Under the pieces are notes generated by a model. The model was not told the origin of the DNA and ran no database searches. It saw only the letters and a program-made list of their open reading frames with translations. DNA of 64,000 nt from Pararhizobium gei (lineage in GTDB: Bacteria > Pseudomonadota > Alphaproteobacteria > Rhizobiales > Rhizobiaceae), in NCBI RefSeq assembly GCF_029223885.1, contig NZ_CP119409.1, positions 4,082,501-4,146,500 on the forward strand. Reading direction: 5' to 3'. A program made the position numbers and the translations under genes. Each line of letters opens with the position of its first letter. Positions within the stretch are counted from its first letter, which is position 1. Below are positions 7,801-24,086 of the stretch, one piece after another.

Positions 7801-7922
7801 GGTTTCTCCTCCGAGTTGAACATGTCGGCGTCCTGCTCTGCAGGAGCCCTCTCCCTTGCCGGCCTGCACCATTGCTGGCCGATATCAGCATCCGGAACGC
7901 CATCGCGACCGGATGAAATCGA

Positions 7923-8900
7923 TTACCGTCGCTTCTTGTAGGTCTCAGCCGTAACCGCCAGAACAATGACGGCACCAATGATCACCTGCTGCAGGAAGGG
8001 TGATACGCTGAGCAGGTTGAGCCCGTTGCGCAAAACGCCGATGATGAGCACGCCGATGATGGTGCCGCCGATCCCGCCCGTGCCGCCGGAAAGCGACGTA
8101 CCGCCGATGACGACAGCCGCGATAGCGTCGAGTTCATAGGATACGCCCGACGATGGCTGCACGGAGTCGAGCCGCGCTGCGAGAACCATACCGGACAAAC
8201 CGGCCAGAAAGCTGCTGACGACGTAAACGAGTACCGTCGCGGTCTGCACATTGATCCCGGCAAGCCGCGCCACTTCGGCATTGCCGCCGATGGCATAAAG
8301 AATGCGTCCGCCGTGGCGATAGCGCTGGTAAAGCAGGCCGATCAGGAACACGGCAAACATCACCGCAACCGTCAGCGTCAGGAACCCGCCGAAGCGCACG
8401 ATGGCCATCATGTTGAACCAGGCCGGAAAGCCAATGATCTGCTGACCGTCGGTAATCATGTTGGCGACGCCGCGCGAAATCGACATCATGGCCAAGGTCG
8501 CAATGAAGGCGGGCACGTTGAATCGGGTGATAAGAAGCCCGGCAATCAGACCGTTCAACGATGCAACCAGCAGCGCTGCCGGGATTGCGACACCCATCGG
8601 GAGGCCGACAACGACATTTAGGTAGCCGAGAACCATCATTGCCAATGCCATGACTGACCCTACGGCCAGATCGATGCCGCCGATGAGGATGACCATCGTC
8701 ATGCCCACGGCCATCACTCCCAAGACAGTGATCTGGTCCAGAACGTTCAGAAAGTTGCGGACTGAAAGGAACCTGTCTGTCACGAGCGTCAGGAAAAGAC
8801 ATAGGAAAAGCAAGCCGATGAGGGGACCTGTGGCCCCGCGCAGCGAGGCAAAGATCTGGCTAGCAGCAATACCCTGCTTCTCCTTCGGAACCGCAAGCAT
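7923..8900 (-). CDS. Sugar ABC transporter permease (RbsC type)
   Basis: A 325-residue inner-membrane permease of the BPD_transp_2 family, with about eight to ten hydrophobic segments and the family's conserved loop 'AIGGNAEVARLAGINV' plus 'AVVIGGTSLSGGTGG'. The start at 8900 has GGGAG about six bases upstream. It is the first gene of the minus operon and is divergent from the transketolase operon across an AT-rich control region. It forms the channel for the RbsA-type ATPase and RbsB-type binding protein. Confidence 0.92.
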   Translation of the reverse strand: MLAVPKEKQGIAASQIFASLRGATGPLIGLLFLCLFLTLVTDRFLSVRNFLNVLDQITVLGVMAVGMTMVILIGGIDLAVGSVMALAMMVLGYLNVVVGLPMGVAIPAALLVASLNGLIAGLLITRFNVPAFIATLAMMSISRGVANMITDGQQIIGFPAWFNMMAIVRFGGFLTLTVAVMFAVFLIGLLYQRYRHGGRILYAIGGNAEVARLAGINVQTATVLVYVVSSFLAGLSGMVLAARLDSVQPSSGVSYELDAIAAVVIGGTSLSGGTGGIGGTIIGVLIIGVLRNGLNLLSVSPFLQQVIIGAVIVLAVTAETYKKRR

Positions 8901-8943
8901 GACGTTCTCCCATTCCCATCAAAGCCAGTCACGATTGATTATT

Positions 8944-8957
8944 TGCATAAATATGCA
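8944..8957. promoter_or_regulatory. Palindrome in the divergent control region
   Basis: TGCATA-AA-TATGCA is a perfect dyad in the AT-rich stretch of about 200 bases between the divergent importer and transketolase operons. A related ATTTATGCAT element recurs at about 9087-9096 near the transketolase start. Position and repetition suggest binding sites for the SorC-type regulator encoded at 12458, which would coordinate both operons. This is an inference from symmetry. Confidence 0.4.
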
Positions 8958-9108
8958 TGACCGTGTGTAAATTCGTATATGATCGATAGACGTCATGTCA
9001 ATATCAAGAATGATCAATTATACGGCAAAAGCTGCAAAATTAGCTTGACTTGAATTCAAACACTGCAATTATATAGGAATATGAATATTTATGCATTATG
9101 AGGGATTC

Positions 9109-9918
9109 ATGCAGCCGAACGATCTCGACAGCATCGCCCGGCAGATTCGCCTTCGCGATCTGCAGGCGGTTTTTGAAGCCGGCGCTGGCCATATCGGCGG
9201 CGAGATGTCCGCCATCGACATTCTTACCGCGCTCTATTTTCGCGTGCTGCGAATTTGGCCGGATCAGCCGAAACATCCAGACCGTGACCGCTTCATCCTC
9301 TCCAAGGGGCATGTTGCGCTTGCCCTCTATGTGACGCTGGCCAAACGCGGCTTCCTGCCCGAAGAGGAAATCAGCACCTTCCTGAAGCCGCATTCACGTC
9401 TGAACGGGCATCCAAACTGCAACAAGGTGCCCGGTGTGGAGACAAATACCGGGCCGCTCGGCCATGGTCTACCGGTCGCCGTCGGTATAGCGAAAGCCGC
9501 CAAACTGACTGGCGCTGCCTACCACACCTACGTCATGACCGGTGATGGCGAGATGCAGGAAGGTTCCAACTGGGAAGCCATTTCGTCTGCTGCGCAGTTC
9601 GGCCTCGACAATCTGACTTTGATCATCGACCACAACCGTTTCCAGCAAGGTGCCGCCCTGAAGGACACCAACAATCTGGCGCCCTTTCCGGCCAAACTCG
9701 AAGCCTTCGGTTGGGATGTATCCGAAATCAACGGCAACGACATGACGCAGATCATTCCAGCGTTGGAGCAGCGGGGGGGGCGCCCGCACTGCATCGTCGC
9801 CCACACCAATAAGGGACAAGGCATCTCGTTTATGCAGGACACGGTCGATTGGCACCACAAGGTGCCCAGTGCCGAACAATACAAGATCGCCGTGGCTGAG
9901 CTTTCGGAGGGAATGTGA
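9109..9918 (+). CDS. Transketolase, N-terminal (TPP-binding) subunit
   Basis: A 269-residue protein matching the N-terminal half of transketolase. It contains 'GHIGGEMSAIDILTALYF', 'RFILSKGHVALALY', 'GPLGHGLPVAVGIA' and the TPP/Mg motif GDGEMQEGSNWEA with the downstream Asn. Full-length transketolase is about 660 residues; here the C-terminal half is the next gene. I prefer the ATG at 9109 because GAGGG lies four bases upstream; an in-frame ATG at 9091 is possible. Split transketolases act on common pentose phosphates or on special ketose phosphates such as apulose 4-phosphate. Codons near 9773-9780 contain a run of eight G. Confidence 0.9.
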   Translation: MQPNDLDSIARQIRLRDLQAVFEAGAGHIGGEMSAIDILTALYFRVLRIWPDQPKHPDRDRFILSKGHVALALYVTLAKRGFLPEEEISTFLKPHSRLNGHPNCNKVPGVETNTGPLGHGLPVAVGIAKAAKLTGAAYHTYVMTGDGEMQEGSNWEAISSAAQFGLDNLTLIIDHNRFQQGAALKDTNNLAPFPAKLEAFGWDVSEINGNDMTQIIPALEQRGGRPHCIVAHTNKGQGISFMQDTVDWHHKVPSAEQYKIAVAELSEGM

Positions 9919-10886
9919 TGAACGCTTTGACAACCCCACCCAAGCTGCATGATTGCCGCGATGCCTTTGTTGCCGTTCTGGAGCGTCTCGCAGCCGAGAA
10001 TCCAAGGATCGTGGCAGTTTGCAACGACTCGGTCGGCTCATCGAAACTGGGCGGCTTCAAGGGAAAATGGCCGGAGCGGCTAGTGAATGTCGGCATTGCC
10101 GAACAAAATATGGTGGGCGTCGGTGCCGGCCTTGCCAATGGCGGCCTTCTGCCCTTCGTCTGCGGCGCCGCCTGCTTTCTCACAGGACGCTCGCTCGAAC
10201 AAATCAAGGCCGACATCGCCTATTCGAACGCCAATGTGAAGCTGATCGGCATTTCCTCCGGCATGGCCTATGGCGAGCTGGGGCCGACCCATCATTCCAT
10301 CGAAGACTTTGCCTGGCTCCGGGTGTTGCCGAATTTGCCTGTGATCGCACCCTGCGATTCGATCGAGACGGCTGCGGCTGTGGAATGGGCAGCCAGCTAT
10401 GACGGCCCCGTGTTCCTTCGCCTGTCGCGCGTCGGCGTGCCGGATCTGCTGACAGCCGGTCATACATTCGAACTTGGCAAGGCGAACCTGCTTCGGGATG
10501 GCGATGCAGTGACGCTGATCGCCAACGGCACATTGACCCACCGCGTCATGACGGCCGCCAGCCTTCTTTCGGAACAGGGGATCGAGGCGCGTGTGCTGAA
10601 TATGGCAACGGTTCGGCCCATCGACGTCGAGGCTGTGGTGGCCGCGGCTCAGGACACCGGCGCCATTCTCACGGCGGAAGAACATTCCACCTTCGGCGGC
10701 CTGGGTTCGGCGATTGCAGAAGTCGTTGTCGCCGAAGCGCCAGTACCCATGAAAATTCTCGGCGTACCCGGCATTTTTGCACCGACCGGGTCGGCTGAAT
10801 TCCTGCTGGATGAATTCGGCATGTCTCCCTTAGCCATTGCCGAGGCAGCTATCGCATTGATCGCACGAAAGTCTTCCCGCGCCTAG
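9918..10886 (+). CDS. Transketolase, C-terminal subunit
   Basis: A 322-residue second half of transketolase, with the pyrimidine-binding domain (about 10-175) and the transketolase C domain (about 190-315). Visible motifs include 'RLVNVGIAEQNMVGVGAGLA' with the catalytic Glu, 'MAYGELGPTHHSIEDFA' and 'AEEHSTFGGLGSAIAE'. The ATG at 9918 overlaps the preceding TGA (ATGA) and has GGAGG seven bases upstream; a GTG one codon earlier is a weaker choice. Translational coupling fits a stoichiometric heterotetramer. It transfers a two-carbon unit from a ketose phosphate; the specific donor is not readable from sequence. Confidence 0.9.
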   Translation: MNALTTPPKLHDCRDAFVAVLERLAAENPRIVAVCNDSVGSSKLGGFKGKWPERLVNVGIAEQNMVGVGAGLANGGLLPFVCGAACFLTGRSLEQIKADIAYSNANVKLIGISSGMAYGELGPTHHSIEDFAWLRVLPNLPVIAPCDSIETAAAVEWAASYDGPVFLRLSRVGVPDLLTAGHTFELGKANLLRDGDAVTLIANGTLTHRVMTAASLLSEQGIEARVLNMATVRPIDVEAVVAAAQDTGAILTAEEHSTFGGLGSAIAEVVVAEAPVPMKILGVPGIFAPTGSAEFLLDEFGMSPLAIAEAAIALIARKSSRA

Positions 10887-10910
10887 TATAGCGGGTCCAG
10901 ATGACGTGCC

Positions 10911-10942
10911 GGGCGCGGCAAAACCTCCCTGATGCCGCGCCC
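10911..10942 (+). promoter_or_regulatory. Intra-operon hairpin
   Basis: GGGCGCGGC and GCCGCGCCC form a perfect nine-base stem with a 14-base loop, in the 79-base gap between the transketolase C subunit and the kinase gene. It is followed by TATTTTC rather than a full T tract. It may be a partial terminator or an mRNA-stabilising structure that sets the ratio of transketolase to kinase. Confidence 0.45.
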
Positions 10943-10965
10943 TATTTTCGCCTGTCGGAGCAACC

Positions 10966-12435
10966 ATGACGACCGCCATACTCGCCATTGATCAGGGCAC
11001 CACCAATTCCAAAGCGGTGCTTGTTTCCACGACCGGAGACATCCTGTCGCGCGGGTCGGCTTCCGTCGGCATAGAACACCCGCAGCCCGGCTGGGTCGAG
11101 CAAGACCCGATGCGCATATGGGCTTCCGTGCAGGAGGCAATCGCTATCTGTCTGCAAGCCGGCCCCAATTCCGACATCTTGGGCATCGCGGTTTCCAACC
11201 AGCGCGAATCCGTCACCGTCTGGGATGCGGCCACGGGAGAACCGCTTGGCCCGGTCGTCAGCTGGCAATGCCGTCGCAGCGCACCCGCTTGCGCCGCGTT
11301 GATTGCCGCAGGCCATGCTTCCCGTGTACAGGAGCTCACCGGCCTGCCCATCGATCCGATGTTCCCCGGCCCCAAGATGAAATTGCTTCTGGACCGCGTT
11401 CCCCCCGGGTTCGAAGCGCGACTGGGCACAATTGATGCGTGGTTGATCCACTGCCTGACGGGCGGCGCGGTTCACGCATGCGACGCGTCGAATGCGGCCC
11501 GCAGCCAGCTTTATGATCTTAACAGCCGGACATGGAGCGACGAGCTTTGCACGCTGTTCGGCGTGCCGAAATCATGCCTGCCGCAGGTTCGCGACAGTGC
11601 GTCCTCGTTCGGCGTGACGAAAAATGTCGCGGGACTTCGCGACGGCATTCCGATTTGCGCGGCGATCGGCGACAGCCATGCCGCACTGTTCGGACACGGA
11701 GCCTTCAACCCTGGCGACGGCAAGGTCACGTTCGGCACCGGCTCCTCCATCATGACGACGCTGCCGCGCTTCATCGCGCCGCGCCACGGCATAACCACGA
11801 CGATTGCCTGGTCCATTGCCGGTAAACCGACCTTTGCCTTCGAGGGAAATATTCTCGTGTCCGCCGCCGCCCTGCCCTGGATGGCCGAGATGCTGGCCCT
11901 CCCCGACGTGCAGGCCCTGACGGATCTTGCCGCCACCGCAGAACCCATGGGGCCTGGCTTCGTGCCGGCCTTTGTCGGACTTGGCGCACCCTACTGGCAC
12001 GCGGATGCGCGAGCGTTGTTTTCCGGCATCACCTTCAACACGACCCGCGCCCAGATGGCCCGCGCGGTGACGGATTCCATGGCCTTTCAGGTCCGGGACG
12101 TCTTTGAGGCGATGTCGGCGCAATCACCGACACCGCTCGGCCGGCTCTTTGCCGATGGTGGGCCGAGCAAAAACACCTTCCTGATGCAGTGTGTCGCCGA
12201 CATGCTTGAACACCCCATCATCCAGTGCGACGCTCCGGAGGCTTCGGCGCTGGGGGCCGCCTATCTGGCGGGCCTGTCTCTGGGGGTCTGGCCCGACCTC
12301 GCCGCGATCGCGGCCCTGCCGCGTGCCGGAAATATTTTGCAACCGCGCGCTTTCGATTTGCAAGGCAAGCGCAACACCTGGAAAGACGCCGTCAATCGCT
12401 CGACCATGTCATTCGCTTCGACTAAGGGTGAATAA
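10966..12435 (+). CDS. FGGY-family carbohydrate kinase
   Basis: A 489-residue sugar kinase, the normal length for FGGY enzymes. The N-terminal domain opens with the phosphate-binding strand 'ILAIDQGTTNSKAVLV'. The C-terminal domain has 'TFGTGSSIMTT', 'GLGAPYWHADARALFSG' and the adenosine motif 'FADGGPSKNTFLMQ'. The overall look is glycerol-kinase-like, but FGGY specificity is not predictable from motifs. It follows the split transketolase and precedes a SorC regulator, so phosphorylation of the ketose made by one of the two SDRs, before transketolase cleavage, is the most economical role. Apulose kinase (AplK) is a family precedent paired with a split transketolase. CGGAG precedes the start. 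Confidence 0.9.
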   Translation: MTTAILAIDQGTTNSKAVLVSTTGDILSRGSASVGIEHPQPGWVEQDPMRIWASVQEAIAICLQAGPNSDILGIAVSNQRESVTVWDAATGEPLGPVVSWQCRRSAPACAALIAAGHASRVQELTGLPIDPMFPGPKMKLLLDRVPPGFEARLGTIDAWLIHCLTGGAVHACDASNAARSQLYDLNSRTWSDELCTLFGVPKSCLPQVRDSASSFGVTKNVAGLRDGIPICAAIGDSHAALFGHGAFNPGDGKVTFGTGSSIMTTLPRFIAPRHGITTTIAWSIAGKPTFAFEGNILVSAAALPWMAEMLALPDVQALTDLAATAEPMGPGFVPAFVGLGAPYWHADARALFSGITFNTTRAQMARAVTDSMAFQVRDVFEAMSAQSPTPLGRLFADGGPSKNTFLMQCVADMLEHPIIQCDAPEASALGAAYLAGLSLGVWPDLAAIAALPRAGNILQPRAFDLQGKRNTWKDAVNRSTMSFASTKGE

Positions 12436-12457
12436 AAATTCACACATGGAGGTGTCG

Positions 12458-13408
12458 ATGGGACGGATCAACGAGCTGAGACTGATTGCCCGCATTGCTC
12501 AGATGTATCATGTGGAAAGCAAGCGTCAGGCAGAGATCGCCGAAATCATGCACATGTCGCAGGCAACCGTGTCACGCATGTTGAAACGTGCCGAGCAGGA
12601 AGACATTGTCCGCACCACGGTCATCCCTCCACCGGGAACATTTGCCGAATTGGAAACGGCTCTCCGGGAACGCTATGGTCTGACGGAGGCCATCGTCATC
12701 GACTGCTCGGAAGATCGCGACGGCGCAATCATGGCGCGGATCGGCGAAGCGGCTGCTCATTTTCTGGAAGTCACACTTCAACAGGACGAGATCATCGGCG
12801 TTTCGAGCTGGAGCCAGACGATCCTGCGAATGGTGGACAACATCCACCCGTTCAAGAATGCCAAGGCCAAGTATATCGCGCAAATCCTCGGCGGCATGGG
12901 CGATGCGTCCGTGCAGACCCATGCCACACAGTTGACAGCACGCCTTGCTAGGCTGACGGGCGGCGAGCCGCGCCTGCTGCTCGTTCAAGGCATCACCTCG
13001 TCGCGTGAAGCCAAACTTGTCATGCTGGCCGATCCGGTCGTGCGGGGAACGCTGGATCTCTTCGGACGATTGACCCTCGCTATCATTGGCATCGGGGCAG
13101 TAGAGCCATCGGAACTGCTTGCCCGCTCCGGCAACGTCTTCTCGCGCCAGGAAATGGCGATGCTTCAAGATGCCGGCGCAGTCGGCGAGATCTCGTATCG
13201 ATTTTACGACAAGGACGGAAAGCCGGTCGAGACACCGTTGAATGAGCGCGTGATCGGCATTTCGCTCGAGGATCTGAAAAAGGCCGGCCGCGTCATTGCA
13301 TTGGCAGGTGGAGAATCAAAAACCCAGGCGATCGCGGGCGCCCTGAAACTCGGTGTCATCGACGTTCTGGTTACCGACAAGTTCACTGCAGCAAGGCTGA
13401 CGGCCTGA
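12458..13408 (+). CDS. SorC/DeoR-type sugar-binding transcriptional regulator
   Basis: A 316-residue regulator with an N-terminal HTH ('ESKRQAEIAEIMHMSQATVS', about 20-42) and a large C-terminal sugar-phosphate-binding domain as in SorC, DeoR(Bsu) and CggR. The start at 12458 is chosen because GGAGGT lies five bases upstream and the protein then begins MGRINELRL, as relatives do. Family members are tetrameric and respond to phosphorylated sugars. Its place between the kinase and SDR genes suggests it senses the kinase product and controls both divergent operons, possibly through the palindrome at 8944. Confidence 0.9.
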   Translation: MGRINELRLIARIAQMYHVESKRQAEIAEIMHMSQATVSRMLKRAEQEDIVRTTVIPPPGTFAELETALRERYGLTEAIVIDCSEDRDGAIMARIGEAAAHFLEVTLQQDEIIGVSSWSQTILRMVDNIHPFKNAKAKYIAQILGGMGDASVQTHATQLTARLARLTGGEPRLLLVQGITSSREAKLVMLADPVVRGTLDLFGRLTLAIIGIGAVEPSELLARSGNVFSRQEMAMLQDAGAVGEISYRFYDKDGKPVETPLNERVIGISLEDLKKAGRVIALAGGESKTQAIAGALKLGVIDVLVTDKFTAARLTA

Positions 13409-13458
13409 TCTAGTCCGAGATTATCGCTTGGCTTGCTGCGCATCATGGAGGAAAGACG

Positions 13459-14244
13459 ATGAGACGCTTTGCAAATCAGACAGTTTTCGTGACGGGGGGC
13501 AACAAAGGCATCGGCCGCGGCATCGCCAAGCGCTTTGCCGAGGAAGGCGCCAAGGTCGCAATAGCAGCCATCGAGAAAAACACGGCCGATATTGCGGCAG
13601 CACTCGCACAGGAAGCCGGCGGAGAGGTCATCGGTTTCACCCTGGATGTGACCGACGCCAAGGCCGTACAGGAGGCCTATGGGGAGGCCGAGGCGAAACT
13701 CGGCGCCATCTCCGTATCGGTGCAGAACGCGGGCGTCATCACCATCGCCAAAATTGAGGATCTGACCGAGCGCGAGTGGGATCTCAACCTGGACGTCAAC
13801 ACCAAGGGTGTCTTTCTGTGCTGCCAGGAAGCTGTTCGCCGCTTCCGCGCGAGTGGCACGAAGGGCCGTCTGATAAACACCGCATCGGGCCAGGCCCGCC
13901 AGGGCTTCATCTATACACCGCATTACGCCGCGTCGAAGTTTGGCGTGGTCGGCCTGACGCAGAGCCTCGCCAAGGAGCTTGCCCGCGAAGGCATAACCGC
14001 CAATGCCATATGCCCCGGCATCATCCACACCGAGATGTGGGACTACAACGACCGCGTCTGGGGCCAGATGCTCGGCGAATATGGTCCTGGCGAGTTGATG
14101 GCCGAATGGGTCGAAGGCATCCCCATGGGCCGGGCCGGCACTCCCGCCGAAGTCGCCGCTCTTGTTGCTTTCCTAGCCTCTCCGGACGCGGCCTACATCA
14201 CGGGCCAGACGATCAATGTGGACGGCGGATTGATCATGTCGTAA
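13459..14244 (+). CDS. Short-chain dehydrogenase/reductase, second of the sugar module
   Basis: A 261-residue SDR with TGGNKGIG (about 13-20), 'QNAGVI', catalytic Ser in 'NTASGQA' and YxxxK in 'HYAASKFG'. The residue after beta-2 is not clearly acidic, so the cofactor is uncertain. The C-terminal '[13 protein letters not shown]' is typical of sugar or polyol dehydrogenases. GGAGGAAAG lies a few bases before the ATG. As the last gene of the transketolase-kinase-regulator operon it probably makes or interconverts the ketose or alditol processed by the kinase. It is clearly different from the SDR at 4543-5331, so the module has two oxidation steps or two substrates. Confidence 0.88.
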
Positions 14245-15245: not shown

Positions 15246-15453
15246 ACGTTCTGTCCCCGGCGCTGCGCAAGCGCTAACCACGCTCTGTCGAGCGCTTCTC
15301 GACAGAGCCGGCCTTGGCGAACAGTCGCGGCCGAGGATCACGACAGCCTGAACGGATAGGGGCTTCGGGGAAATCATGTGTCAAAGGCGAAATATCTTCC
15401 TCAGTGGCGCTCAATCGCTATGATGTGTCCAAGGCAACCAAATGCAGGGCGCG

Positions 15454-15714
15454 ATGACAGAACGAAACGATGGTCATTCCCGGGAACGCATGACCATCGT
15501 CGGCGATCTCGATGCCCCCTCCTTCGTGCCCTGGATACGGCGCCATGCTGCCAAGCTTGGGCTTTCGCAAGCCATTTCCCACTCCAGTGCCGAACGGATC
15601 GAGCTTGAGGTCGATGGGCCGGAAGAGCTGATCGACATGATGGAAATGGGCTGCTCGCTCGGGCCCATCGACGTCTGGGTCGATACGATTGTGCGCAAGC
15701 CTATCAGCCCCTGA
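15454..15714 (+). CDS. Acylphosphatase-like protein, probably inactive
   Basis: A small protein of 86 residues with the acylphosphatase fold pattern: beta strand 'MTIVGDLD', helix 'FVPWIRRHAAKLGL', strand 'ERIELEVDG', helix 'PEELIDMMEMG' and a final 'VDTIVRK'. In active enzymes the first loop reads GxVQGVxFR and its Arg binds the phosphate; here the matching position is Val (SFVPW). The catalytic Asn of the second strand region is replaced by the 'ISHSSAE' segment. It therefore looks like a non-catalytic member. An upstream in-frame ATG at 15442 is an alternative start. Its role is unknown. Confidence 0.7.
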   Translation: MTERNDGHSRERMTIVGDLDAPSFVPWIRRHAAKLGLSQAISHSSAERIELEVDGPEELIDMMEMGCSLGPIDVWVDTIVRKPISP

Positions 15715-15887: not shown

Positions 15888-16550
15888 ATGCATTCCGACA
15901 CGACGGGCTCGTGGACGCCAGTCGCCCTTTCCGGAGATCTGCCGGCCGGAGCCGTCATGTCGGCCCAAATCCCAGCCGAGGCCATTGCACTCTGGCGAAG
16001 CGCTTCCGGCCGTTTATCCGCATCGGCGGATCGCTGTCCGCATCGCGGCATGCGCCTGTCCCATGGCTTCGTGCGCGGCGAGGCGCTGTCCTGCATCTAC
16101 CACGGCTGGAGCTATGCGCAGACCGGACATTGTCTGCGCATCCCGGCGCATCCCGGATTGGTTCCCCCGGAAACCATCCGGGTGGCGACGCATGCCGTCG
16201 AGGAATCCGGCGGCATCATCTGGGTTTCCGCCGGCAAGCCCATGGGCGGGCCACCGCGGTTCGAAGGCCTGGCTCCGTTGCGTTCCCTGACTGTACACGC
16301 TGACATCGCCACCATCGAGGCCGCCGCCGTTGCAAAGGCAGGGCCGGAGGGTCTTCTGGAGCTCGATCGGGGTGCCGGCCCCATCTGCGTGCTTCTTTCC
16401 GTGCAGAAGGACAACACGACGCTGATGCATGTTCTGCTCTCCGCCACAGCCGAACCCGCCGCGGGCATCGCGGCTTCCCGGGCTGTCGAAAGCCTCCGCC
16501 GAAAGGCCGAGGCGCTGCAGACGACAGGGGTCGCGCCATGCAGGCAATGA
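15888..16550 (+). CDS. Stand-alone Rieske [2Fe-2S] protein with degenerate oxygenase tail
   Basis: A 220-residue protein with an intact Rieske centre: Cys50-Pro-His52 and Cys69-Ile-Tyr-His72, the CxH-16-CxxH spacing of ring-hydroxylating oxygenases. After the Rieske domain (about 10-120) the remaining 100 residues lack the N-x2-D-x2-H-x4-H mononuclear iron motif, so it cannot act as an oxygenase by itself. The next gene shows the opposite: no Rieske ligands but an intact iron site. I infer that this subunit passes electrons to the iron site of that partner. It is the first gene of the operon, and its TGA overlaps an internal ATG of the next gene. A reductase is not encoded nearby. Confidence 0.85.
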   Translation: MHSDTTGSWTPVALSGDLPAGAVMSAQIPAEAIALWRSASGRLSASADRCPHRGMRLSHGFVRGEALSCIYHGWSYAQTGHCLRIPAHPGLVPPETIRVATHAVEESGGIIWVSAGKPMGGPPRFEGLAPLRSLTVHADIATIEAAAVAKAGPEGLLELDRGAGPICVLLSVQKDNTTLMHVLLSATAEPAAGIAASRAVESLRRKAEALQTTGVAPCRQ

Positions 16551-17377
16551 TCGACGAATGGTATCCGGTCGGCCTCTTCAGCCAACTTGATCGGGCGGGG
16601 CGCAAGACTGCGCTGATGGGCGAGCCGATAAAGGTCGCTTGCGACGAGAATGGCGATGCGAGGGTGACCGGCGCAGACGGGCGTGTCCTGCCGGCATGCA
16701 TCCGCTACGGCCATGTCTGGTCATCCCTCGGCTCGCCAAAGAAGGCGCTTTTTCCGATCCCGGAGGCCGATCAGCCCGGCCGCCGATTTGTCGACGTCGG
16801 CGTGGTGCGCGTACGCTGCTCCCCACTGCGGGCTGTCGAAAACTTTCTCGATGTCGCCCACTTCCCCTTCGTACACACGGACATTCTTGGCGCCGAGCCA
16901 CATACGGAAGTTCAAAACTACAAGGTCGAAATCCGCGAGGATGTCGATGAGGTCTGGGCAACGCAGGTCAAGTTCTACCAGCCGCAGGCGGCGAAATCGG
17001 CAAGCGGCGGCATCACGACGGAATATATGTACCGCGTGCCGGCCCCAACCTGCTCGGTGCTCTACAAGACATGCCCGCCACGCCCCAGCGAATGGGATGT
17101 CATCACCCTGTTCGTCCAGCCGCTGGCCGAAGACCTGTGCGACGTCTGGCCATGGATGGCTTTGTTCGACGACACGACCTCCTTGACCGATCTGATCCAT
17201 TTCCAGCAGACTATCTTCCTGCAGGACCGGTCTATCCTGGAAAACCAGATCCCACGCCTGCTGCCGCTCGACCCCGGCATGGAAATCCCGACACGCGCCG
17301 ACCTCACCTCGATTGCCTATCGACGCTGGCTCAAACGCCACAACTACACCTATGGTGCGCAGCTGGTGGCACAATGA
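16538..17377 (+). CDS. Rieske-oxygenase catalytic subunit with degenerate Rieske domain (NdmC-like)
   Basis: A 279-residue protein whose first 90 residues keep the shape of a Rieske domain start (DEWYPVGLFSQL, then MGEPIKV) but lack every CxH/CxxH ligand. The catalytic part has Asn102, Asp105, His108 and His113 in 'ENFLDVAHFPFVH', the mononuclear iron motif, and a distal Asp in 'FLQDRSILENQ' at the usual third-ligand position. Canonical Rieske oxygenase alpha subunits carry both centres in one chain. Here the Rieske centre is presumably supplied by the preceding gene. In Pseudomonas, NdmC (7-methylxanthine N7-demethylase) also lacks its own Rieske cluster and works with a GST-like NdmE; a GST-like gene follows here too. 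The start at 16538 has AGGGG seven bases upstream; 16547 (ATGA overlap) is an alternative. Confidence 0.83.
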   Translation: MQAMIDEWYPVGLFSQLDRAGRKTALMGEPIKVACDENGDARVTGADGRVLPACIRYGHVWSSLGSPKKALFPIPEADQPGRRFVDVGVVRVRCSPLRAVENFLDVAHFPFVHTDILGAEPHTEVQNYKVEIREDVDEVWATQVKFYQPQAAKSASGGITTEYMYRVPAPTCSVLYKTCPPRPSEWDVITLFVQPLAEDLCDVWPWMALFDDTTSLTDLIHFQQTIFLQDRSILENQIPRLLPLDPGMEIPTRADLTSIAYRRWLKRHNYTYGAQLVAQ

Positions 17378-18033
17378 AGCTTTACGATTACATCCTCTCC
17401 CCCAGTTGTTACAAGGTGCGCCTGATGGCGGCGCTGACCGGCGTGACACTCGATATCCGCCCCGTGGATTTTCACCCTGGAGCCGAACACAAGGGCGCCG
17501 CGCTCCTGGCGCTCAATCCCGCCGGCTCCATCCCAATCCTTGAAGATGGCGATCTGATCCTGACCGAATCCTCGGCCATTCTCGTTTACATCGCGGTCAA
17601 GGCGGCACCGGAATGGCTTGCCGGCAGCCAGTCCGGCGAAGCCGCGCGCGTGCAGCAATGGCTATCCTATTCCAGTCGCCTGACCGCAAGCCTCGGCGGC
17701 GCAAGGCTTACAGAGATGTTGCTGCGGCCCGGCGATATCGGCGCACTGCAGGCGCAGGGGGTTCTTGCGCTCAGAGAATTGGAAGCGGGCCTGGTGGAGC
17801 AAGGCCTGCGCGGCATGCGCTTCCTGGCGGCGGACAGGCCAACGGTTGCCGATATTGCGTGCTTTCCGTATGTGGCGCTGGCGCCCGACGGCGGTGTCTC
17901 GCTCGACCCTTATCCCGCGATCCGCCTCTGGTCGCGCGCGCTGCGCAGTCTTGATCATTTCATCGAAATGCCCGGCATTCATCGGCTGCATGAATTGAAG
18001 CCCGAACCACATATTGAACCGGGCGAGGCATAA
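17374..18033 (+). CDS. Glutathione S-transferase-like protein (NdmE-like by context)
   Basis: A 219-residue GST with a thioredoxin-like N-terminal domain: 'LYDYILSPSCYKVRLMAAL', the cis-Pro segment 'GSIPILEDGD', the glutathione-binding 'LTESSAILVYIA' and a helical C-terminal domain ending in 'RPTVADIACFPYVALAP'. The ATG overlaps the preceding stop (ATGA), so it is made together with the oxygenase subunit. In the caffeine pathway the GST homologue NdmE is a structural partner needed by NdmC and NdmD, and I propose the same kind of role here. A catalytic glutathione role is the alternative. The catalytic Ser/Cys position (SPSC) is present. Confidence 0.85.
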   Translation: MKLYDYILSPSCYKVRLMAALTGVTLDIRPVDFHPGAEHKGAALLALNPAGSIPILEDGDLILTESSAILVYIAVKAAPEWLAGSQSGEAARVQQWLSYSSRLTASLGGARLTEMLLRPGDIGALQAQGVLALRELEAGLVEQGLRGMRFLAADRPTVADIACFPYVALAPDGGVSLDPYPAIRLWSRALRSLDHFIEMPGIHRLHELKPEPHIEPGEA

Positions 18034-18034
18034 C

Positions 18035-19414
18035 ATGACCGGCTATCTTCTGAAAAACTGCGCGGCAGTAGTGGTCGATGACGGCAAGGGGCCGGTCGTC
18101 CATCGCAACGTCGATCTCCTGACCAATGGGCCGGCGATCCAGGCGATCGGCGAAAACCTTGGGGCCCAAGCGCTGCCTGCCGGCACAACGATCCAGGATG
18201 CCAGCGGCTGGTTCGTCTATCCCGGCCTCGTTAACACCCACCATCATTTCTTCCAGTGCTTCGTGCGCAACCGCGCCGATCTCGACTGGACGAAGCTCTC
18301 GGTCATAGAGTGGCTCGACCGCATCTACCCGATCTTCTCGCAACTGAACGAGGAGTGCTTCTACCATTCCTCGGTCACGGCCATGGCCGAGCTGATCAAG
18401 CATGGCTGCACCACGGCCTTCGACCACCAGTATAATTTCCCCCGGCACGCAGGAAAGCGGCTGATCGACCGGCAATTCGAAGCGGCTCAGATGCTCGGCA
18501 TGCGTTTCCACGCCGGTCGCGGCGGTAACACACTTCCGAAGTCGCAGGGCTCCACCATCCCCGACGAAATGCTGGAAACGACGGACGAATTCATTGCCGA
18601 TTGCGCCCGGCTGATTGATGCGTATCAAGACCCCAACCCCTTCAGCATGCGCCAGGTGGTCGTGGCGCCGTGCCAGCCGGTCAATTGCTACCGTGAAACC
18701 TTCGTGGAATCGGTGGCGCTGGCGCGCGATCGGGATGTGATGATGCACACCCATGTCGGAGAGGGTGAAAGCCCGGTCATCCAGGCCCGCCACGGCCTGC
18801 GCACGGTCGATTATCTGGAAGAACTCGGCTTTGCCGGGCCCGATGCCTTCTATGCGCATTGCTGGGAACTGACTCATGACGAATTGAAAACGATGGCGGC
18901 AAGCGGAACCGGGGTTTCGCATTGCCCGGAGCCCGTCTATCTGGTCGGCGCCGAGGTCACCGATATCCCCGCCATGTCGGCCTTTGGCTTGCGTGTCGGG
19001 CTTGGCTGCGACGGCGCGGCCTCCAATGACAATTCGAACCTGATGCACTGCCTGCACTCGGCCTACATGCTGCAGTGCCTTGTCGCATCTACCCGCACCC
19101 ATCCCGTACCGCCTTCCGTTGACTTTCTGGGCTACGCCACGACGGGCGGCGCAAGCCTGCTCGGGCGGCACGATATCGGCCGGCTGGCGCCCGGCATGGC
19201 TGCCGATCTGTTTGCGATCGACACGCGCCGCATGGACTATGTCGGCACGCGGCATGATCCGCTGAGCCTGATCCCCCGCGTCGGGATCGGCATGGCCGCC
19301 GACATGACCATGATCAACGGCCGTATTGTTTGGCAAAAGGGTGAGTTTCCCGGGCTCGACGAAGCGAAACTGTTTGCCGATGCCGAGGCCGCACTCGCCA
19401 CTGCAAATTTCTGA
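18035..19414 (+). CDS. 8-oxoguanine deaminase-like amidohydrolase
   Basis: A 459-residue metal-dependent hydrolase of the TrzN/AtzA-like amidohydrolase branch. Visible metal ligands are the HxH pair His69 and His71 in 'NTHHHFFQC', a His in 'MHTHVGEG', a His in 'YAHCWELTHDE' and the Asp in 'GLGCDGAASND'. Overall it matches 8-oxoguanine deaminase, the cytoplasmic enzyme that converts 8-oxoguanine to uric acid, and related guanine or isoguanine deaminases. It begins one base after the GST stop. Next to a purine-type ABC importer and a putative purine oxygenase, a role in salvage or breakdown of modified purines is likely. The exact base is not proven by sequence. Confidence 0.85.
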   Translation: MTGYLLKNCAAVVVDDGKGPVVHRNVDLLTNGPAIQAIGENLGAQALPAGTTIQDASGWFVYPGLVNTHHHFFQCFVRNRADLDWTKLSVIEWLDRIYPIFSQLNEECFYHSSVTAMAELIKHGCTTAFDHQYNFPRHAGKRLIDRQFEAAQMLGMRFHAGRGGNTLPKSQGSTIPDEMLETTDEFIADCARLIDAYQDPNPFSMRQVVVAPCQPVNCYRETFVESVALARDRDVMMHTHVGEGESPVIQARHGLRTVDYLEELGFAGPDAFYAHCWELTHDELKTMAASGTGVSHCPEPVYLVGAEVTDIPAMSAFGLRVGLGCDGAASNDNSNLMHCLHSAYMLQCLVASTRTHPVPPSVDFLGYATTGGASLLGRHDIGRLAPGMAADLFAIDTRRMDYVGTRHDPLSLIPRVGIGMAADMTMINGRIVWQKGEFPGLDEAKLFADAEAALATANF

Positions 19415-19450
19415 TGTGATTTCTGAAAAACCGAAAAGGGAACCGACACC

Positions 19451-20548
19451 ATGAACAACCTGACCCGCCGAAATCTGATGAAGGCCGCCGCTGCCACCGG
19501 TCTCGCCGGCGCATTCGGCAGCCGCCTTGCCCACGCAGCCGACGAACCGCTCGGCATTACGCTTGTCATACCCTCGCCGGTTGGCGATGTCGGCTGGGGG
19601 CATGCCCTCGCCGCCGGCCTCGATCCCGTCAAGGCGGCCTATGGCGACAAGGTGAAAGTCACCATTCTCGAAAACATCCCCGAAGGCCCTGACGCCGACC
19701 GTATCATGAACAAGACTGTCGCGGACGGAAACAAGTTCCTGATTGCCGGTTCGTTCGGTTACCAGAACGGCGCGCTGCAGATCGCCCGCCGCGATCCGAG
19801 CGTCACCGTGCTGCACGCATCCGGCTTCCAGGTCGCCCCCAATTTCTCGCCCTTCGCCGCCAAATATTTCCAGGGTTCCTACCTTTTGGGCATGGCTGCC
19901 GCCGCGCTCAGCAAAACCGGCAAGCTCGGCTCCGTATCCGCCTTTGCGATCCCCGAACTGATCACCACCATCAACGCCTTCACGCTGGGTGCCCAATCGG
20001 TCAAGCCCGACATTGAAGTGTCGGTCGTGTGGGTGAATTCCTGGTTCGACCCCGCCAAGGAGCAGGAAGCCGCAAAAGCCCTGATCGCGCAGAAATGCGA
20101 CGTCATCTTCTCGAATGCGCAGGACACGCCCTCCGTCATCGCCGCCTGCGAGGAGGCCGGCGTCTATGCGTTCAACCTCAACTCCTCGATGAAGAAATAT
20201 GCGCCGAAAATGTATCTCGGCTGCGTTTCGACGGACTGGTCGCCCTTTTTCAAGGCCTCGGTCGATGCGCATTTCGCCGGCACGTTCAAGGGCGCCAACA
20301 CCTTCCTCGGTGTCAAGGAAAAGGTCGTTGAGGTCGTGGACTGGAGCCCGGATGTCCCAGCCGACGTTATGACCAAGATCAAGGACGTCGAGGCGAAGAT
20401 CGCAGATGGCAGCTTCTCGCCCTTCACCGGGCCGATCAGCAAGGCGGATGGCAGCGAAGCCGTGCCGGCCGGCACGGCCCTGACCGATGCCGAGATCGTC
20501 GCCCTCGACTGGCACGTCAAGGGCGTCACCACGCCGCTGCCGAAGTAA
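19451..20548 (+). CDS. BMP-family nucleoside/purine-binding protein
   Basis: A 365-residue substrate-binding protein of the basic membrane protein (BmpA/PnrA-like) family. The N-terminus has a twin-arginine-like motif (TRRNLMK) and ends in an AxA cleavage site near residue 30, so export may go through Tat. The mature chain shows 'PVGDVGWGHALAAGL', 'LIAGSFGYQN' and a late 'YLGCVSTDWSPFF'. Family members bind nucleosides or purines; several alphaproteobacterial ones accompany purine catabolic genes. It is followed three bases later by the ATPase gene and two permeases, giving a complete importer. Confidence 0.9.
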   Translation: MNNLTRRNLMKAAAATGLAGAFGSRLAHAADEPLGITLVIPSPVGDVGWGHALAAGLDPVKAAYGDKVKVTILENIPEGPDADRIMNKTVADGNKFLIAGSFGYQNGALQIARRDPSVTVLHASGFQVAPNFSPFAAKYFQGSYLLGMAAAALSKTGKLGSVSAFAIPELITTINAFTLGAQSVKPDIEVSVVWVNSWFDPAKEQEAAKALIAQKCDVIFSNAQDTPSVIAACEEAGVYAFNLNSSMKKYAPKMYLGCVSTDWSPFFKASVDAHFAGTFKGANTFLGVKEKVVEVVDWSPDVPADVMTKIKDVEAKIADGSFSPFTGPISKADGSEAVPAGTALTDAEIVALDWHVKGVTTPLPK

Positions 20549-20551
20549 GCC

Positions 20552-22075
20552 ATGTCCATCCCGCTCCTGTCGCTGCGCGGCATTTCGAAGAGCTACGGCC
20601 AGATCCATGCCAATCAGGCGATCGATCTGGACGTGGCTCCACAGTCGATCCATGCGATCCTCGGGGAAAACGGGGCGGGAAAATCGACGCTGATGAAGCT
20701 GATCTATGGCGTCGAACAGCCGGACGACGGAACCCTCGTCTGGGAAGGAGAGCCCTTGGACCTTGCCTCCCCTGCGGATGCCAGGCGCAAGGGCATCGGC
20801 ATGGTTTTCCAGCACTTCTCGCTTTTCGAGACGCTGACGGTGGTGGAAAACATCCGGCTGGTCGTTCCGGGGCGGAAGGCCGATCTTGAGGAAAAAATTC
20901 GGACACTCGGGCGGGAATTCGGCCTTGACGTGGATCCGCGCGCCCATGTGCACGCACTGTCCGTTGGCGAACGGCAGCGGGTGGAGATCGTCCGCTGCCT
21001 GATGACCAATCCGAAGCTGCTCATTCTGGACGAGCCGACCTCGGTCCTGCCGCCACAAATGGTGGAGACACTGTTCGACACCTTGCGCCGCCTGCGTGAC
21101 GGCGGCGTTTCCATCCTGTTCATTTCCCACAAGCTGGAGGAAATCCGGGCAATTTGCGACCGGGCGACCATTCTGCGGGGCGGGCGTGTCACCGGCGATG
21201 TCGATCCGCGGGCGCATGATGCTCATGACCTTGCCCGTATGATGATCGGGCGCGATATGCCGGCGCCGATGCCTGCCATTGCGCGCGCCTCCGGGGAAAA
21301 GCAGCTTGAGATCATCGGCCTCGACCACACGCCCGCCGATCCTTTCGGCGTGCCGCTCTCCGGCATCAGCCTAAAGGTGCGGGCCGGCGAAATTCTGGGG
21401 ATCGCCGGCATTTCCGGCAACGGACAAAGCGAACTCGCCGCGCTGATATCCGGCGAGACTTTGCTTGGCCCTGAACAGCGCGACCGGATTTTCATGATGG
21501 GAAAGGATGTCGGCAGGCTCGGTGCCGCCGCCCGCCGCAAGCTTGGTTTTGCCTTCGTTCCTGAAGACCGGCTCGGGCGAGGCGCCATCCCTGAAATGTC
21601 GCTTGTCCTCAACAGCCTGCTGACGGCCCATCCGCTCAAGCTCCTGCGGCACAGTCTTGTCGACAGAGCGCGCGCGACCGCCTTTACCGAGGAATGCATC
21701 CGCCAATACGATGTCCGCACACCAGGCCCGCAGGCCGAGGCGGGCAGTTTGTCCGGGGGGAACCTGCAGAAATTCATCGTCGGCCGGGAAATCATGCTCT
21801 CGCCCAAGCTCTTGTTCGTGGCGCAGCCAACCTGGGGCGTCGATATCGGCGCGGCGTCGGCCGTGCGCAGCCGGCTTGTCGCGCTGCGCAACGAGGGTAT
21901 GGCAATCCTCGTGATATCCGAGGAACTCGAGGAACTGTTCGAACTCTGCGATTCAATTCAGGTACTGCATCACGGAGCACTGAGCCGCCCACTTGTCACC
22001 CGAGAAACCAAACCCGAAGAGATCGGCCGATACATGATCGGGGTACAGCATTCGCCGGAAAAGGCGCACGCATGA
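20552..22075 (+). CDS. ABC transporter double ATPase, nucleoside type
   Basis: A 507-residue tandem ATPase of the simple-sugar/nucleoside class. Domain one has Walker A GENGAGKST, signature 'LSVGERQRVEIVRCL' and Walker B 'LLILDEPTSVL'. Domain two has the weak Walker A GISGNGQSE, 'LSGGNLQKFIVGREI' and 'LLFVAQPTWGVD', where Gln replaces the usual Asp-Glu; this degeneracy is normal for the nucleoside subfamily. The start lies three bases after the binding-protein stop and its own stop overlaps the next start (ATGA). Confidence 0.92.
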   Translation: MSIPLLSLRGISKSYGQIHANQAIDLDVAPQSIHAILGENGAGKSTLMKLIYGVEQPDDGTLVWEGEPLDLASPADARRKGIGMVFQHFSLFETLTVVENIRLVVPGRKADLEEKIRTLGREFGLDVDPRAHVHALSVGERQRVEIVRCLMTNPKLLILDEPTSVLPPQMVETLFDTLRRLRDGGVSILFISHKLEEIRAICDRATILRGGRVTGDVDPRAHDAHDLARMMIGRDMPAPMPAIARASGEKQLEIIGLDHTPADPFGVPLSGISLKVRAGEILGIAGISGNGQSELAALISGETLLGPEQRDRIFMMGKDVGRLGAAARRKLGFAFVPEDRLGRGAIPEMSLVLNSLLTAHPLKLLRHSLVDRARATAFTEECIRQYDVRTPGPQAEAGSLSGGNLQKFIVGREIMLSPKLLFVAQPTWGVDIGAASAVRSRLVALRNEGMAILVISEELEELFELCDSIQVLHHGALSRPLVTRETKPEEIGRYMIGVQHSPEKAHA

Positions 22076-23178
22076 ATATCTGGTCGATGGCCCCCAGTTT
22101 CGTCCGCCGCGAGCGCGCATCATCGGCCGCGACCGTGCTTGCGCCTGTTGTCGCGCTTACGGTCGCCATCATCCTCAATCTCGGCCTTTACGTCGTGATC
22201 GGCCGCGATCCCCTTGCCGTCATTCACGCGATGCTTCTCGAGCCATTCCTCTCCTTTGCGTCCTTTTCGGAAGTGCTGCTCAAGGCCGGCCCGCTCCTGC
22301 TGATCGCCCAGGGGCTGGCGATCGGCTTTCGGGCAAAGGTCTTCAATATCGGGGCAGAAGGCCAGTTCATCCTCGGCGCGATTTCCGCCTCCGCCATTCC
22401 CGTCTGGTTTCCGCAGGCGACGGGCCAGTGGATCTGGCCGGCAATGCTCCTGCTCGGCGCAATCGGCGGCGCGCTCTGGGCGTCGATCACCGCCTTCTGG
22501 CGGGTTAGGCTGAATGCCAATGAAATACTGGTTTCGTTGATGCTCAGCCTTGTTGCTGCACAGCTTCTGAACTACCTCTTGCTCGGCCCCTGGAAGGACC
22601 CGAACGGCTTCAATTTCCCGCAATCCGTGATGTTCCAGTACGATGCGATGGTGCCGACGCTGATTTCCGGGACACGCGTCAATGTTTCGCTTCTGATCAC
22701 GCTCGCCCTATCGCTGGCCGCATGGATCTTCATGCAGAAGAGCTTTGCCGGCTACAAGCTGCAGGTTGGCGGGCTTGCGCCCAGAGCTGCCGGCTATGCC
22801 GGCTTCAGCCAGAGTTGGGCAATCTGGCTCTCCCTGCTCATCGGCGGCTTTGCCGCAGGACTTGCGGGAGCGGCAGAAGTCGCCGGGCCGCTCGGCCAGT
22901 TGCAACGCTCGATCTCCACCGGCTACGGTTATGCGGCCATCATCGTCGCCTATCTCGGCGGCCTGCATCCGCTTGGGATCATCGTTTCCGCGCTGGTCAT
23001 GGCTGTCATCTATATCGGCGGGGACAATGCCATGGTCTCGGCCAATCTGCCGATCGCCGCCGTTCGCGTCTTTCAGGGCAGCTTGCTTCTGGCCTATCTC
23101 GTCGCCATTGCCTTCGTGCGCTACCGCCTGGAGTGGCCTCAAGCCGCCAGAAAGACCGTCCATCGGAGCCCGTCATGA
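22072..23178 (+). CDS. ABC transporter permease 1, nucleoside/purine type
   Basis: A 368-residue membrane protein of the BPD_transp_2 family. About nine or ten hydrophobic segments begin near residue 20 ('VLAPVVALTVAIILNLGLYV'). Family landmarks are 'FNIGAEGQFILGAI', 'NANEILVSLMLSLVA' and 'GYGYAAIIVAYLGGLHPLGI'. The start at 22072 overlaps the ATPase stop (ATGA), and the stop overlaps the second permease in the same way. It forms a heterodimeric channel with the product of the following gene. Confidence 0.92.
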   Translation: MNIWSMAPSFVRRERASSAATVLAPVVALTVAIILNLGLYVVIGRDPLAVIHAMLLEPFLSFASFSEVLLKAGPLLLIAQGLAIGFRAKVFNIGAEGQFILGAISASAIPVWFPQATGQWIWPAMLLLGAIGGALWASITAFWRVRLNANEILVSLMLSLVAAQLLNYLLLGPWKDPNGFNFPQSVMFQYDAMVPTLISGTRVNVSLLITLALSLAAWIFMQKSFAGYKLQVGGLAPRAAGYAGFSQSWAIWLSLLIGGFAAGLAGAAEVAGPLGQLQRSISTGYGYAAIIVAYLGGLHPLGIIVSALVMAVIYIGGDNAMVSANLPIAAVRVFQGSLLLAYLVAIAFVRYRLEWPQAARKTVHRSPS

Positions 23179-24086
23179 ATGCCATTGAGTTCATCATTTC
23201 CGGCATGCTCGCAGCCGCCACGCCCTTCCTTCTTGCCGCCCTTGGCGAGTTGGTGGTCGAGCGTGCCGGGGTCCTCAACCTCGGGGTCGAGGGGCTGATG
23301 GCCTTGGGCGCAGTGCTCGCCTTCATCACCGTCTATCACGGCGGCGGACATTTCTTGGGCTTCGTCGCCGCCGGGCTTGGGAGCGCTGCTCTTTCTCTGG
23401 TGTTCGCAGTCGTCGCGCTTGGATTTCGGGCAAACCAGGTGGCGACAGGCTTGGCAATCGGCATCCTCGGCCAGGGGCTCTCGGCACTTTTCGGGAAAAC
23501 CTATGAAAGCCTGACAGTCAAGGCGCTGCCCAAGCTCGCTTTTCCCTGGCTCTCTGACATTCCGGTCGTCGGGGGGCTCTTCACCCAGGACATCGTCGTG
23601 TGGATTTGCCTGCTAGCGACGCTTTGCATATGGGCGATGTTTACATTCTCAAAACTCGGTTTGATCATCCGCGCAGTCGGAGAAAACCCCAAGGCGGCCC
23701 ACGCTATCGGCTACCCGGTCGTCACCGTGCGGGTTCTGGCCATTGCCTTCGGCGGCGCCATGGCTGGTTTCGCCGGCGCCTACGCGGCGGTGATCTACAC
23801 CCCGCTTTGGGCCGATGGAATGATCGCCGGCCGTGGCTGGATCGCAATCGCCCTCGTCGTCTTCGGCACATGGCTCACCGGTCGCATATTCCTCGGCGCC
23901 TGCCTCTTCGGCGCCGTCTCGCTGATGGGGCTCGCAGCCCAGGCAACAGGAATGGACGTTCCCTCGCAATTGCTGTCGAGCCTGCCCTATATCGTCACGA
24001 TCATCGTGCTCGGCATCATCTCGTCAAACCGCCGCCTGCTGAAGCTGAACGGCGTCGCCTCGCTCGGCGAGCCCTTCGAGCGGTAA
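23175..24086 (+). CDS. ABC transporter permease 2, nucleoside/purine type
   Basis: A 303-residue second permease of the same family, with 'ERAGVLNLGVEGLMALGA', 'GFRANQVATGLAIGILGQGL' and 'GRGWIAIALVVFGTW'. ATGA overlap with permease 1 shows coupled translation. It is the last gene of the operon that begins with the Rieske protein at 15888. No clear terminator follows on the plus strand. Confidence 0.92.
   Translation: MNAIEFIISGMLAAATPFLLAALGELVVERAGVLNLGVEGLMALGAVLAFITVYHGGGHFLGFVAAGLGSAALSLVFAVVALGFRANQVATGLAIGILGQGLSALFGKTYESLTVKALPKLAFPWLSDIPVVGGLFTQDIVVWICLLATLCIWAMFTFSKLGLIIRAVGENPKAAHAIGYPVVTVRVLAIAFGGAMAGFAGAYAAVIYTPLWADGMIAGRGWIAIALVVFGTWLTGRIFLGACLFGAVSLMGLAAQATGMDVPSQLLSSLPYIVTIIVLGIISSNRRLLKLNGVASLGEPFER

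Follow-up and report, generated by a model that had tools for sequence, protein, structure and literature searches.

A conserved nine-gene block in Pararhizobium gei

Gene calls and Pfam matches place eight genes, all on the plus strand, between positions 15888 and 24086 of the window, that is, the whole 64,000-nucleotide stretch of Pararhizobium gei DNA analyzed here (Table 1). The Rieske and oxygenase genes overlap by 13 bases, the oxygenase and GST genes by 4 bases (ATGA), and a single base separates the latter from the amidohydrolase gene. Gaps of 36 and 3 bases follow on either side of the binding protein gene, and two further 4-base overlaps join the ATPase gene to that of permease 1 and the latter to permease 2. 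The single operon held together by ATGA overlaps and short gaps, as originally predicted, is therefore real and correctly placed. However, it comprises eight genes and not seven, and a ninth, encoding a pseudo-acylphosphatase (ACYP), lies just upstream and accompanies the hydrolase in 76 of 80 loci. No riboswitch or other known RNA was matched in the window at gathering thresholds.

Table 1. Genes of the operon, with positions in the window.
Feature	Position	Strand	Remarks
Pseudo-acylphosphatase (ACYP) gene	15442..15714	+	Ninth member, conserved; start codon uncertain
Stand-alone Rieske [2Fe-2S] protein	15888..16550	+	Pfam Rieske, 73 bits
Rieske-less catalytic oxygenase subunit, NdmC-type	16538..17377	+	VanA_C; no Pfam Rieske match
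GST-like subunit, NdmE-type	17374..18033	+	GST_N; 40% identity to L052 NdmE orthologue
Amidohydrolase, predicted N2,N2-dimethylguanine hydrolase (NdmH)	18035..19414	+	Amidohydro_1; 13/13 NdmH residues
BMP-type binding protein, putative guanine-class ABC importer, Tat signal	19451..20548	+	Bmp; nearest PDB entries AtzT 6pi5 and Brucella 3s99
ABC importer ATPase	20552..22075	+	ABC_tran; 77/80 loci
ABC importer permease 1	22072..23178	+	BPD_transp_2; 77/80 loci
ABC importer permease 2	23175..24086	+	BPD_transp_2; 77/80 loci

As the same gene order recurs in named genomes, the arrangement is not due to chance. The oxygenase and GST genes adjoin the amidohydrolase gene in 79 of the 80 loci from named genomes, and a family-wide sample that included the P. 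gei genome has the block beside the hydrolase gene in 15 of 16 hydrolase-bearing genomes, bearing out the notion of a conserved unit. The block is chromosomal in P. gei and is found in several alphaproteobacterial families. In Rhizobium johnstonii 3841 the block corresponds to RL_RS29070-29105, with RL_RS29085 as the hydrolase orthologue. The hydrolase occurs without an adjacent oxygenase in two cases (L088 and G658), and in one locus (L155) neither hydrolase nor importer goes with the oxygenase module.

A predicted NdmH-type amidohydrolase

The amidohydrolase was initially labelled 8-oxoguanine-deaminase-like. Its best named model is indeed 8-oxoguanine deaminase (NF006055), with which it shares its amidohydrolase subgroup, but the score of 368 bits lies under the curated cut-off of 532 bits. 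On this ground, and on that of the active-site residues, the identity was rejected, as was that of canonical guanine deaminase (TIGR02967; 122 bits against a cut-off of 375 bits). Instead, all 13 residues published for NdmH are kept at identical numbers, namely those of the CQNN signature (C213, Q214, N217 and N165), catalytic Q74, E243, H275 and D326, and flanking W85, W93, Y98, Y133 and P300. Among orthologues whose reading frame is closed, 83 of 83 have the full set, and so does the enzyme of Pleomorphomonas oryzae (P0252), which aligns without gaps at 79% identity. The 8-oxoguanine-type enzyme of Paracoccus, by comparison, has 8 of the 13: Gln214, Asn217, Asn165, Trp85 and Pro300 of the window enzyme are replaced by Ser, Ser, Met, Gly and Ser, respectively.

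These data render very improbable a pathway in which a methylated or oxidised purine is imported, demethylated and then processed by an 8-oxoguanine deaminase, as the original prediction had it. The nearest solved structure, like the nearest named model, is an 8-oxoguanine deaminase, and the Paracoccus relative pairs its oxygenase with a cut-off-passing enzyme of this kind; against this stand the insufficient score and the five divergent active-site positions of the window enzyme, which lacks the residues of the Paracoccus protein. The amidohydrolase is thus predicted from its residues to be an N2,N2-dimethylguanine hydrolase (NdmH) and not an 8-oxoguanine deaminase. Because it carries this signature, the substrate probably bears N2-methyl groups. 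In passages of PMC13054789, NdmH is reported to prefer N2,N2-dimethylguanine over guanine 150- to 3600-fold, and the genomic context of NdmH is named as planned follow-up.

A split oxygenase and its partners

The catalytic subunit is 45% identical end to end to authentic NdmC (P0136; 126 of 277 aligned positions) and falls with it inside a Rieske-less clade of the tree, while the GST-like protein matches the L052 NdmE orthologue at 82 of 205 positions. Both parallels drawn at the outset, with NdmC and with NdmE, are thereby upheld. Residues H108, H113 and D230, invariant among 60 sequences, are those which we take to be the mononuclear iron ligands (two His, one Asp), based on the familiar motif and on alignment to Asp280 of SxtT. 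The iron-side segment F-Q-Q-x-I-F-x-Q-D is identical in 83 NdmH-linked, 8 GuaD-linked and 6 NdmC-type sequences, and the structure of the subunit is predicted with a pLDDT of 89.

It is improbable that the oxygenase acts in the manner of the xanthine hydroxylase HpxD, adding a hydroxyl group to a carbon of the purine ring such as C8 instead of demethylating. HpxD, a named xanthine hydroxylase subunit, is a distant relative (H48, 27.5%), and a tree row at 27% identity, which adjoins hpxO in L033, was labelled HpxD-like by us. This row, however, lies outside the Rieske-less clade containing NdmC, the iron-side residues of the subunit are those of NdmC, and several other clade members have formaldehyde-detoxification genes nearby.

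Over 123 positions, the Rieske protein and the Rieske domain at the N-terminus of an NdmD orthologue share 39% identity, and C50, H52, C69 and H72 of the former are invariant among 44 sequences; in L155 the Rieske protein reads as a 216-aa open frame. The P. gei protein, with 220 aa, has no reductase domains in Pfam. A reductase gene was found in the block in 0 of 80 loci, and no match in the P. gei genome spans both halves of an NdmD-like query. The closest reductase candidate (34-35% match) lies some 120 kb from the block, among the genes of a dimethylamine-monooxygenase-like cluster, and the reductase would presumably come from elsewhere in the genome.

A profile of 27 ACYP relatives matches acylphosphatases in the PDB, yet the catalytic Arg and the catalytic Asn of these enzymes are each present in none of the 27. 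The gene accompanies the stand-alone Rieske form in 26 of 34 loci and the fused form in 0 of 22. ACYP is a ninth member of the operon, devoid of the catalytic residues of acylphosphatase, and perhaps aids the split oxygenase.

Predicted pathway and comparison with known systems

The nearest solved relatives of the binding protein bind guanine and adenine, in agreement with the purine importer foreseen originally. Five of the eight guanine-site residues of AtzT are kept (Ser97, Phe98, Glu165, Trp194 and Asn218), while Tyr45, Asn169 and Asn220 are changed to Trp, Thr and Asp, which sets the protein apart from AtzT and the Brucella protein. The pocket near the exocyclic amine is more polar in NdmH-linked than in GuaD-linked importers, so that a dimethylamino group is not obviously favoured. 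For the four transporter proteins, the best NCBIfam models all describe a putative vitamin B6 transporter, with scores far under the cut-offs (89 against 400, 425 against 670, 156 against 400 and 171 against 465 bits).

A catabolic cluster for s-triazines of the atrazine type was also considered, in view of the similarity of the hydrolase to AtzB and of the binding protein to AtzT. Certain relatives are annotated as 'hydroxyatrazine ethylaminohydrolase', and among binding proteins of solved structure AtzT comes nearest. This explanation is hardly credible, given a hydrolase with CQNN where AtzB has SSII, the chromosomal location and wide distribution of the block, and an NdmC-type oxygenase without evident role in a triazine path.

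From homologies, residue signatures, gene order and conservation we infer the substrate, the order of steps and the role of each helper protein. The operon probably serves to import and break down guanine methylated at both the exocyclic N2 and N7. Most likely, it lets methyl-bearing guanine, as released from RNA, serve as food. The BMP/ABC importer would bring in the methylated base, the NdmH-type amidohydrolase would cleave off the dimethylamino group as dimethylamine, and the split oxygenase, composed of the catalytic subunit, the separate Rieske protein and the GST-like scaffold, would oxidise the N7 methyl group to formaldehyde. The end product would be xanthine, which could enter ordinary purine catabolism. 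Import and demethylation of a methylated purine, as first proposed, are consistent with the oxygenase, GST and importer homologies; the 8-oxoguanine deamination does not stand, and N2-methyl groups had not been considered.

The operon itself contains no genes for formaldehyde or dimethylamine metabolism, and a FrmA relative of more than 50% identity occurs at 1 of the 80 hydrolase loci, 9 kb distant. A dimethylamine-monooxygenase gene is present in 8 of 16 hydrolase genomes versus 26 of 183 others (P = 0.0016), a contrast that is weaker when counted by genus (4 of 10 versus 17 of 99; P = 0.098).

One compound needing both enzymes would be N2,N2,7-trimethylguanine, which forms the cap base of small nuclear and small nucleolar RNAs and is scarce relative to singly modified guanines. 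It might be converted to 7-methylxanthine, an NdmC substrate, and on to xanthine, or be processed in the reverse order. This base is recorded as a natural product in a passage of PMC2763108. A catabolic operon dedicated to it, with a three-way split Rieske demethylase in which a dead acylphosphatase replaces the NdmD linker, is a possibility that we put forward tentatively.

Less likely, two substrates set free from RNA could share one importer, N2,N2-dimethylguanine being handled by NdmH and 7-methylguanine by the oxygenase, with no doubly modified base involved. Both are natural RNA bases, the strong preference of NdmH for the former would fit, and a separate guanine deaminase homologue elsewhere in the genome (37% identity) could finish guanine. 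Arguing against it, the two enzymes are paired almost without exception, and six related operons have a guanine deaminase where NdmH would be (all four of those tested pass TIGR02967). This near-absolute pairing and the replacement suggest successive steps on one molecule.

Part of this system is known from caffeine breakdown, while the combination of genes and its target appear new. The original claim that the combination was undescribed holds in that sense for the whole, though not for the oxygenase/GST half, since ndmCDE homologues in Sinorhizobium and Mesorhizobium are already in print, as given in passages of PMC4408171. The window enzyme keeps all 13 published active-site positions of the NdmH of PMC13054789 and is highly identical to a P. 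oryzae protein that has them too; there, NdmH is described as an enzyme only, and here its predicted counterpart is set in an operon. This places the newly described N2,N2-dimethylguanine hydrolases in a genomic setting beside a likely partner reaction, and hence in a testable modified-guanine pathway in many soil and plant-associated bacteria.

SxtT/GxtA and NdmA are full-length Rieske oxygenases with their own Rieske cluster, whereas the N-terminus of the catalytic subunit retains part of that domain only (263 of 327 SxtT residues aligned). Closest in design is NdmCDE of Pseudomonas putida CBB5, termed "very unique" in a 2015 review, which has a Rieske-less catalytic subunit, a GST-like partner and a related Rieske domain as well. 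In contrast to NdmD, which fuses this domain to a reductase, the P. gei block has it on a separate small protein, includes a pseudo-acylphosphatase but no reductase, and carries a predicted guanine-type importer and a predicted N2 hydrolase where NdmA and NdmB are found in CBB5. The NdmCDE design is thereby extended to a clade in which one protein has the Rieske cluster, another the catalytic iron, and the reductase is outside the block, to which a pseudo-acylphosphatase linked to the stand-alone Rieske form is added.

Operon organization and the predicted hydrolase

The operon is real and conserved. It comprises eight contiguous plus-strand genes, with overlaps at four junctions (13, 4, 4 and 4 bases) and short gaps at the other three (1, 36 and 3 bases). 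Their products carry the Pfam domains Rieske, VanA_C, GST, Amidohydro_1, Bmp, ABC_tran and, twice, BPD_transp_2. In the oxygenase subunit, Pfam detected VanA_C but no Rieske domain. The genome is near-complete, and the contig that holds the window measures 4.38 Mb. The original prediction had counted seven genes and had missed a ninth, encoding a pseudo-acylphosphatase; its reading of a demethylase is borne out, as is, so far as sequence can tell, the class of importer.

Features located in the window
Feature	Position	Strand	Remarks
Sugar-type cluster	4543-14244		ABC transporter, SDRs, FGGY kinase, SorC/DeoR-type regulator; transketolase divided between two genes
Pseudo-acylphosphatase	15442-15714	+	without catalytic Arg and Asn
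Eight-gene operon	15888-24086	+
2826-aa frame	51108-59588	-	GH94 and glycosyltransferase domains; probably cyclic beta-glucan synthase

The amidohydrolase had been likened to 8-oxoguanine deaminase, which is indeed its closest named model, yet its score of 368 bits falls short of that model's cut-off (532 bits), and the original prediction was wrong on this point. N2,N2-dimethylguanine hydrolases (NdmH) were described in 2026, and 13 residues were named for the Pleomorphomonas oryzae enzyme (PMC13054789). The window protein has all 13 with identical numbering, as does P. oryzae protein P0252; the two align over 459 residues with no gap, at 79% identity. Among 84 orthologues, one (L126) runs off its contig, and the remaining 83 all keep the 13 residues, compared with 8 of 13 in a Paracoccus 8-oxoguanine-type enzyme. 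Because of this conservation and the similarity to P0252, the amidohydrolase is predicted to be NdmH. A guanine deaminase homologue (37% identity) is encoded by a separate gene elsewhere in this genome.

Conservation of the block was surveyed in named genomes among the best 80 of 409 hydrolase relatives, a sample biased to close kin (78-93% identical). Oxygenase and GST are present in 79 of these 80 loci, the Rieske and BMP proteins in 78, and the ATPase and each permease in 77; 76 carry the pseudo-acylphosphatase. Several absences reflect short or cut stretches (L126, L132, L133, L095). Two Pleomorphomonas loci (L129, L130) carry the full block, and in one exception, L088, the hydrolase stands by itself. 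A VanB- or NdmD-type reductase was sought in all 80 stretches without success. In a second, partly overlapping draw of 199 family genomes, own genome counted, the hydrolase occurs in 16 (scored by similarity alone, E<=1e-200), two of them (G583, G747) just 67% identical, and the oxygenase lies within 1 kb in all except G658 (15/16). Oxygenase matches were found in 36 of 199 genomes drawn at order level (E<=1e-10) and in 15 of 398 at phylum level (E<=1e-40). At L155 (G087), an 87% identical oxygenase module occurs without hydrolase or importer; of six neighboring frames, three match acetoacetate decarboxylase, patatin and AAA domains and the other three have no Pfam match.

Oxygenase partners and the pseudo-acylphosphatase

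In six relatives (L139-L143, L151), pseudo-acylphosphatase, Rieske, oxygenase, GST and importer genes are followed by a guanine deaminase. All five guanine deaminases tried (L139, L141, L142, L151 and, outside the six, L041) pass the TIGR02967 cut-off. The oxygenases of L139-L143 fall within the 20-row clade of the window oxygenase and that of L151 in the adjacent clade. Read most simply, the N-demethylase module stays constant and the 2-position enzyme changes: guanine deaminase for an amino and NdmH for a dimethylamino group. Iron-side residues are identical across 83 NdmH-linked, 8 guanine deaminase-linked and 6 NdmC-type oxygenases, which favors an N7 chemistry common to all three; past residue 85, just four sites met the separation criterion between the first two groups.

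Other oxygenase neighborhoods hold NdmA/NdmB kin, xanthine dehydrogenase kin or 8-oxoguanine deaminase. Six loci (L037, L160-L163, L165) combine a tandem pair of Rieske-less oxygenases with a BMP importer and single genes for a GST and a Rieske-reductase fusion; since the pair falls into two separate subclades, methyl groups may be removed at two different positions. The conjugative plasmid pKNA08 of Komagataeibacter nataicola from kombucha, a tea ferment (L034), bears two Rieske-less modules, full-length NdmA/NdmB-like oxygenases and a VanB-type reductase, a set that suggests a methylxanthine pathway. Plasmid pTmex-577K of P. putida MT178 (L052) carries an ndmABCDE-frmA-frmB-like cluster; a 2015 review placed known ndm clusters on genomic DNA, except for a 12 kb plasmid reported without sequence (PMC4408171).

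The pseudo-acylphosphatase alone scores 18.9 bits against Pfam acylphosphatase, under the cut-off of 22.5; 24 of its 27 relatives match at E<=0.1, and a 27-member profile matched solved acylphosphatases at 2.6e-7. At alignment-derived positions, neither of the acylphosphatase catalytic residues, Arg and Asn, occurs in any of the 27; D65, E68 and C71 are conserved in 26 and G74 in all. Across 58 loci, including ten NdmH operons, the gene was present at 26 of the 34 with a stand-alone Rieske protein, at none of the 22 with a Rieske-reductase fusion and at 0 of the 2 that have neither form. We suggest that it may serve a docking or assembly role replacing the covalent Rieske-reductase link.

Import and a proposed pathway

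The closest solved structures to the binding protein are AtzT, crystallized with guanine (KD about 0.11 uM), and Brucella 3s99, in which adenine was modeled (both PMC6834077). AtzT residues Ser97, Phe98, Glu165, Trp194 and Asn218 are retained; Tyr45, Asn169 and Asn220 are replaced by Trp, Thr and Asp. Against a guanine importer, putative vitamin B6 transporter models (NCBIfam) score best for all four transport proteins (binding protein, ATPase, two permeases), with every match far under cut-off. Of 82 binding proteins from NdmH loci, among them an additional protein in L089 with 32% identity, 81 have Asn at position 218 and 81 have Ser/Thr at position 169, whereas all six guanine deaminase operons (L139-L143, L151) have Leu and Ile there. 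The pocket around the exocyclic amine thus varies together with the N2-acting enzyme, in a direction that is hard to interpret.

We propose that the operon serves to break down guanines methylated at N2 and N7. A candidate substrate is N2,N2,7-trimethylguanine, for which both enzymatic steps have a counterpart among known family activities: NdmH acts on the 2-dimethylamino group and NdmC on 7-methylxanthine. After import, NdmH would strip dimethylamine and the N7 methyl would be oxidized off, leaving as formaldehyde, with xanthine as end product. The main rival is that the substrates are a mixture of singly modified bases. Trimethylguanosine caps carry N2,N2,7-trimethylguanine as their base. 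The compound is also a recorded ascidian natural product (PMC2763108). Formaldehyde-detoxification genes adjoin several oxygenase relatives (L052, L053, L171, L175, L161, L163, L174, L034; a 26% match in L153 is left out), but among the 80 hydrolase loci a relative at >50% occurs in one (L091, 9 kb off the hydrolase). Electrons for the demethylation would have to come from a reductase encoded elsewhere in the genome, where the closest matches (34-35% identical) lie inside a dimethylamine-monooxygenase-like cluster. A DmmA-like gene is present in 8 of 16 hydrolase genomes versus 26 of 183 others (p=0.0016 by genome, 0.098 by genus).

No description of this gene combination or of NdmH genomic context was found in open-licence PMC papers. 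NdmCDE, the methylxanthine N7-demethylase of Pseudomonas putida CBB5, has been called very unique; its homologues, reported chiefly from Sinorhizobium and Mesorhizobium, had no known function (PMC4408171). We conclude that the operon follows the NdmCDE design in split form, coupled to a guanine-class importer and to a hydrolase predicted to act on N2,N2-dimethylguanine.
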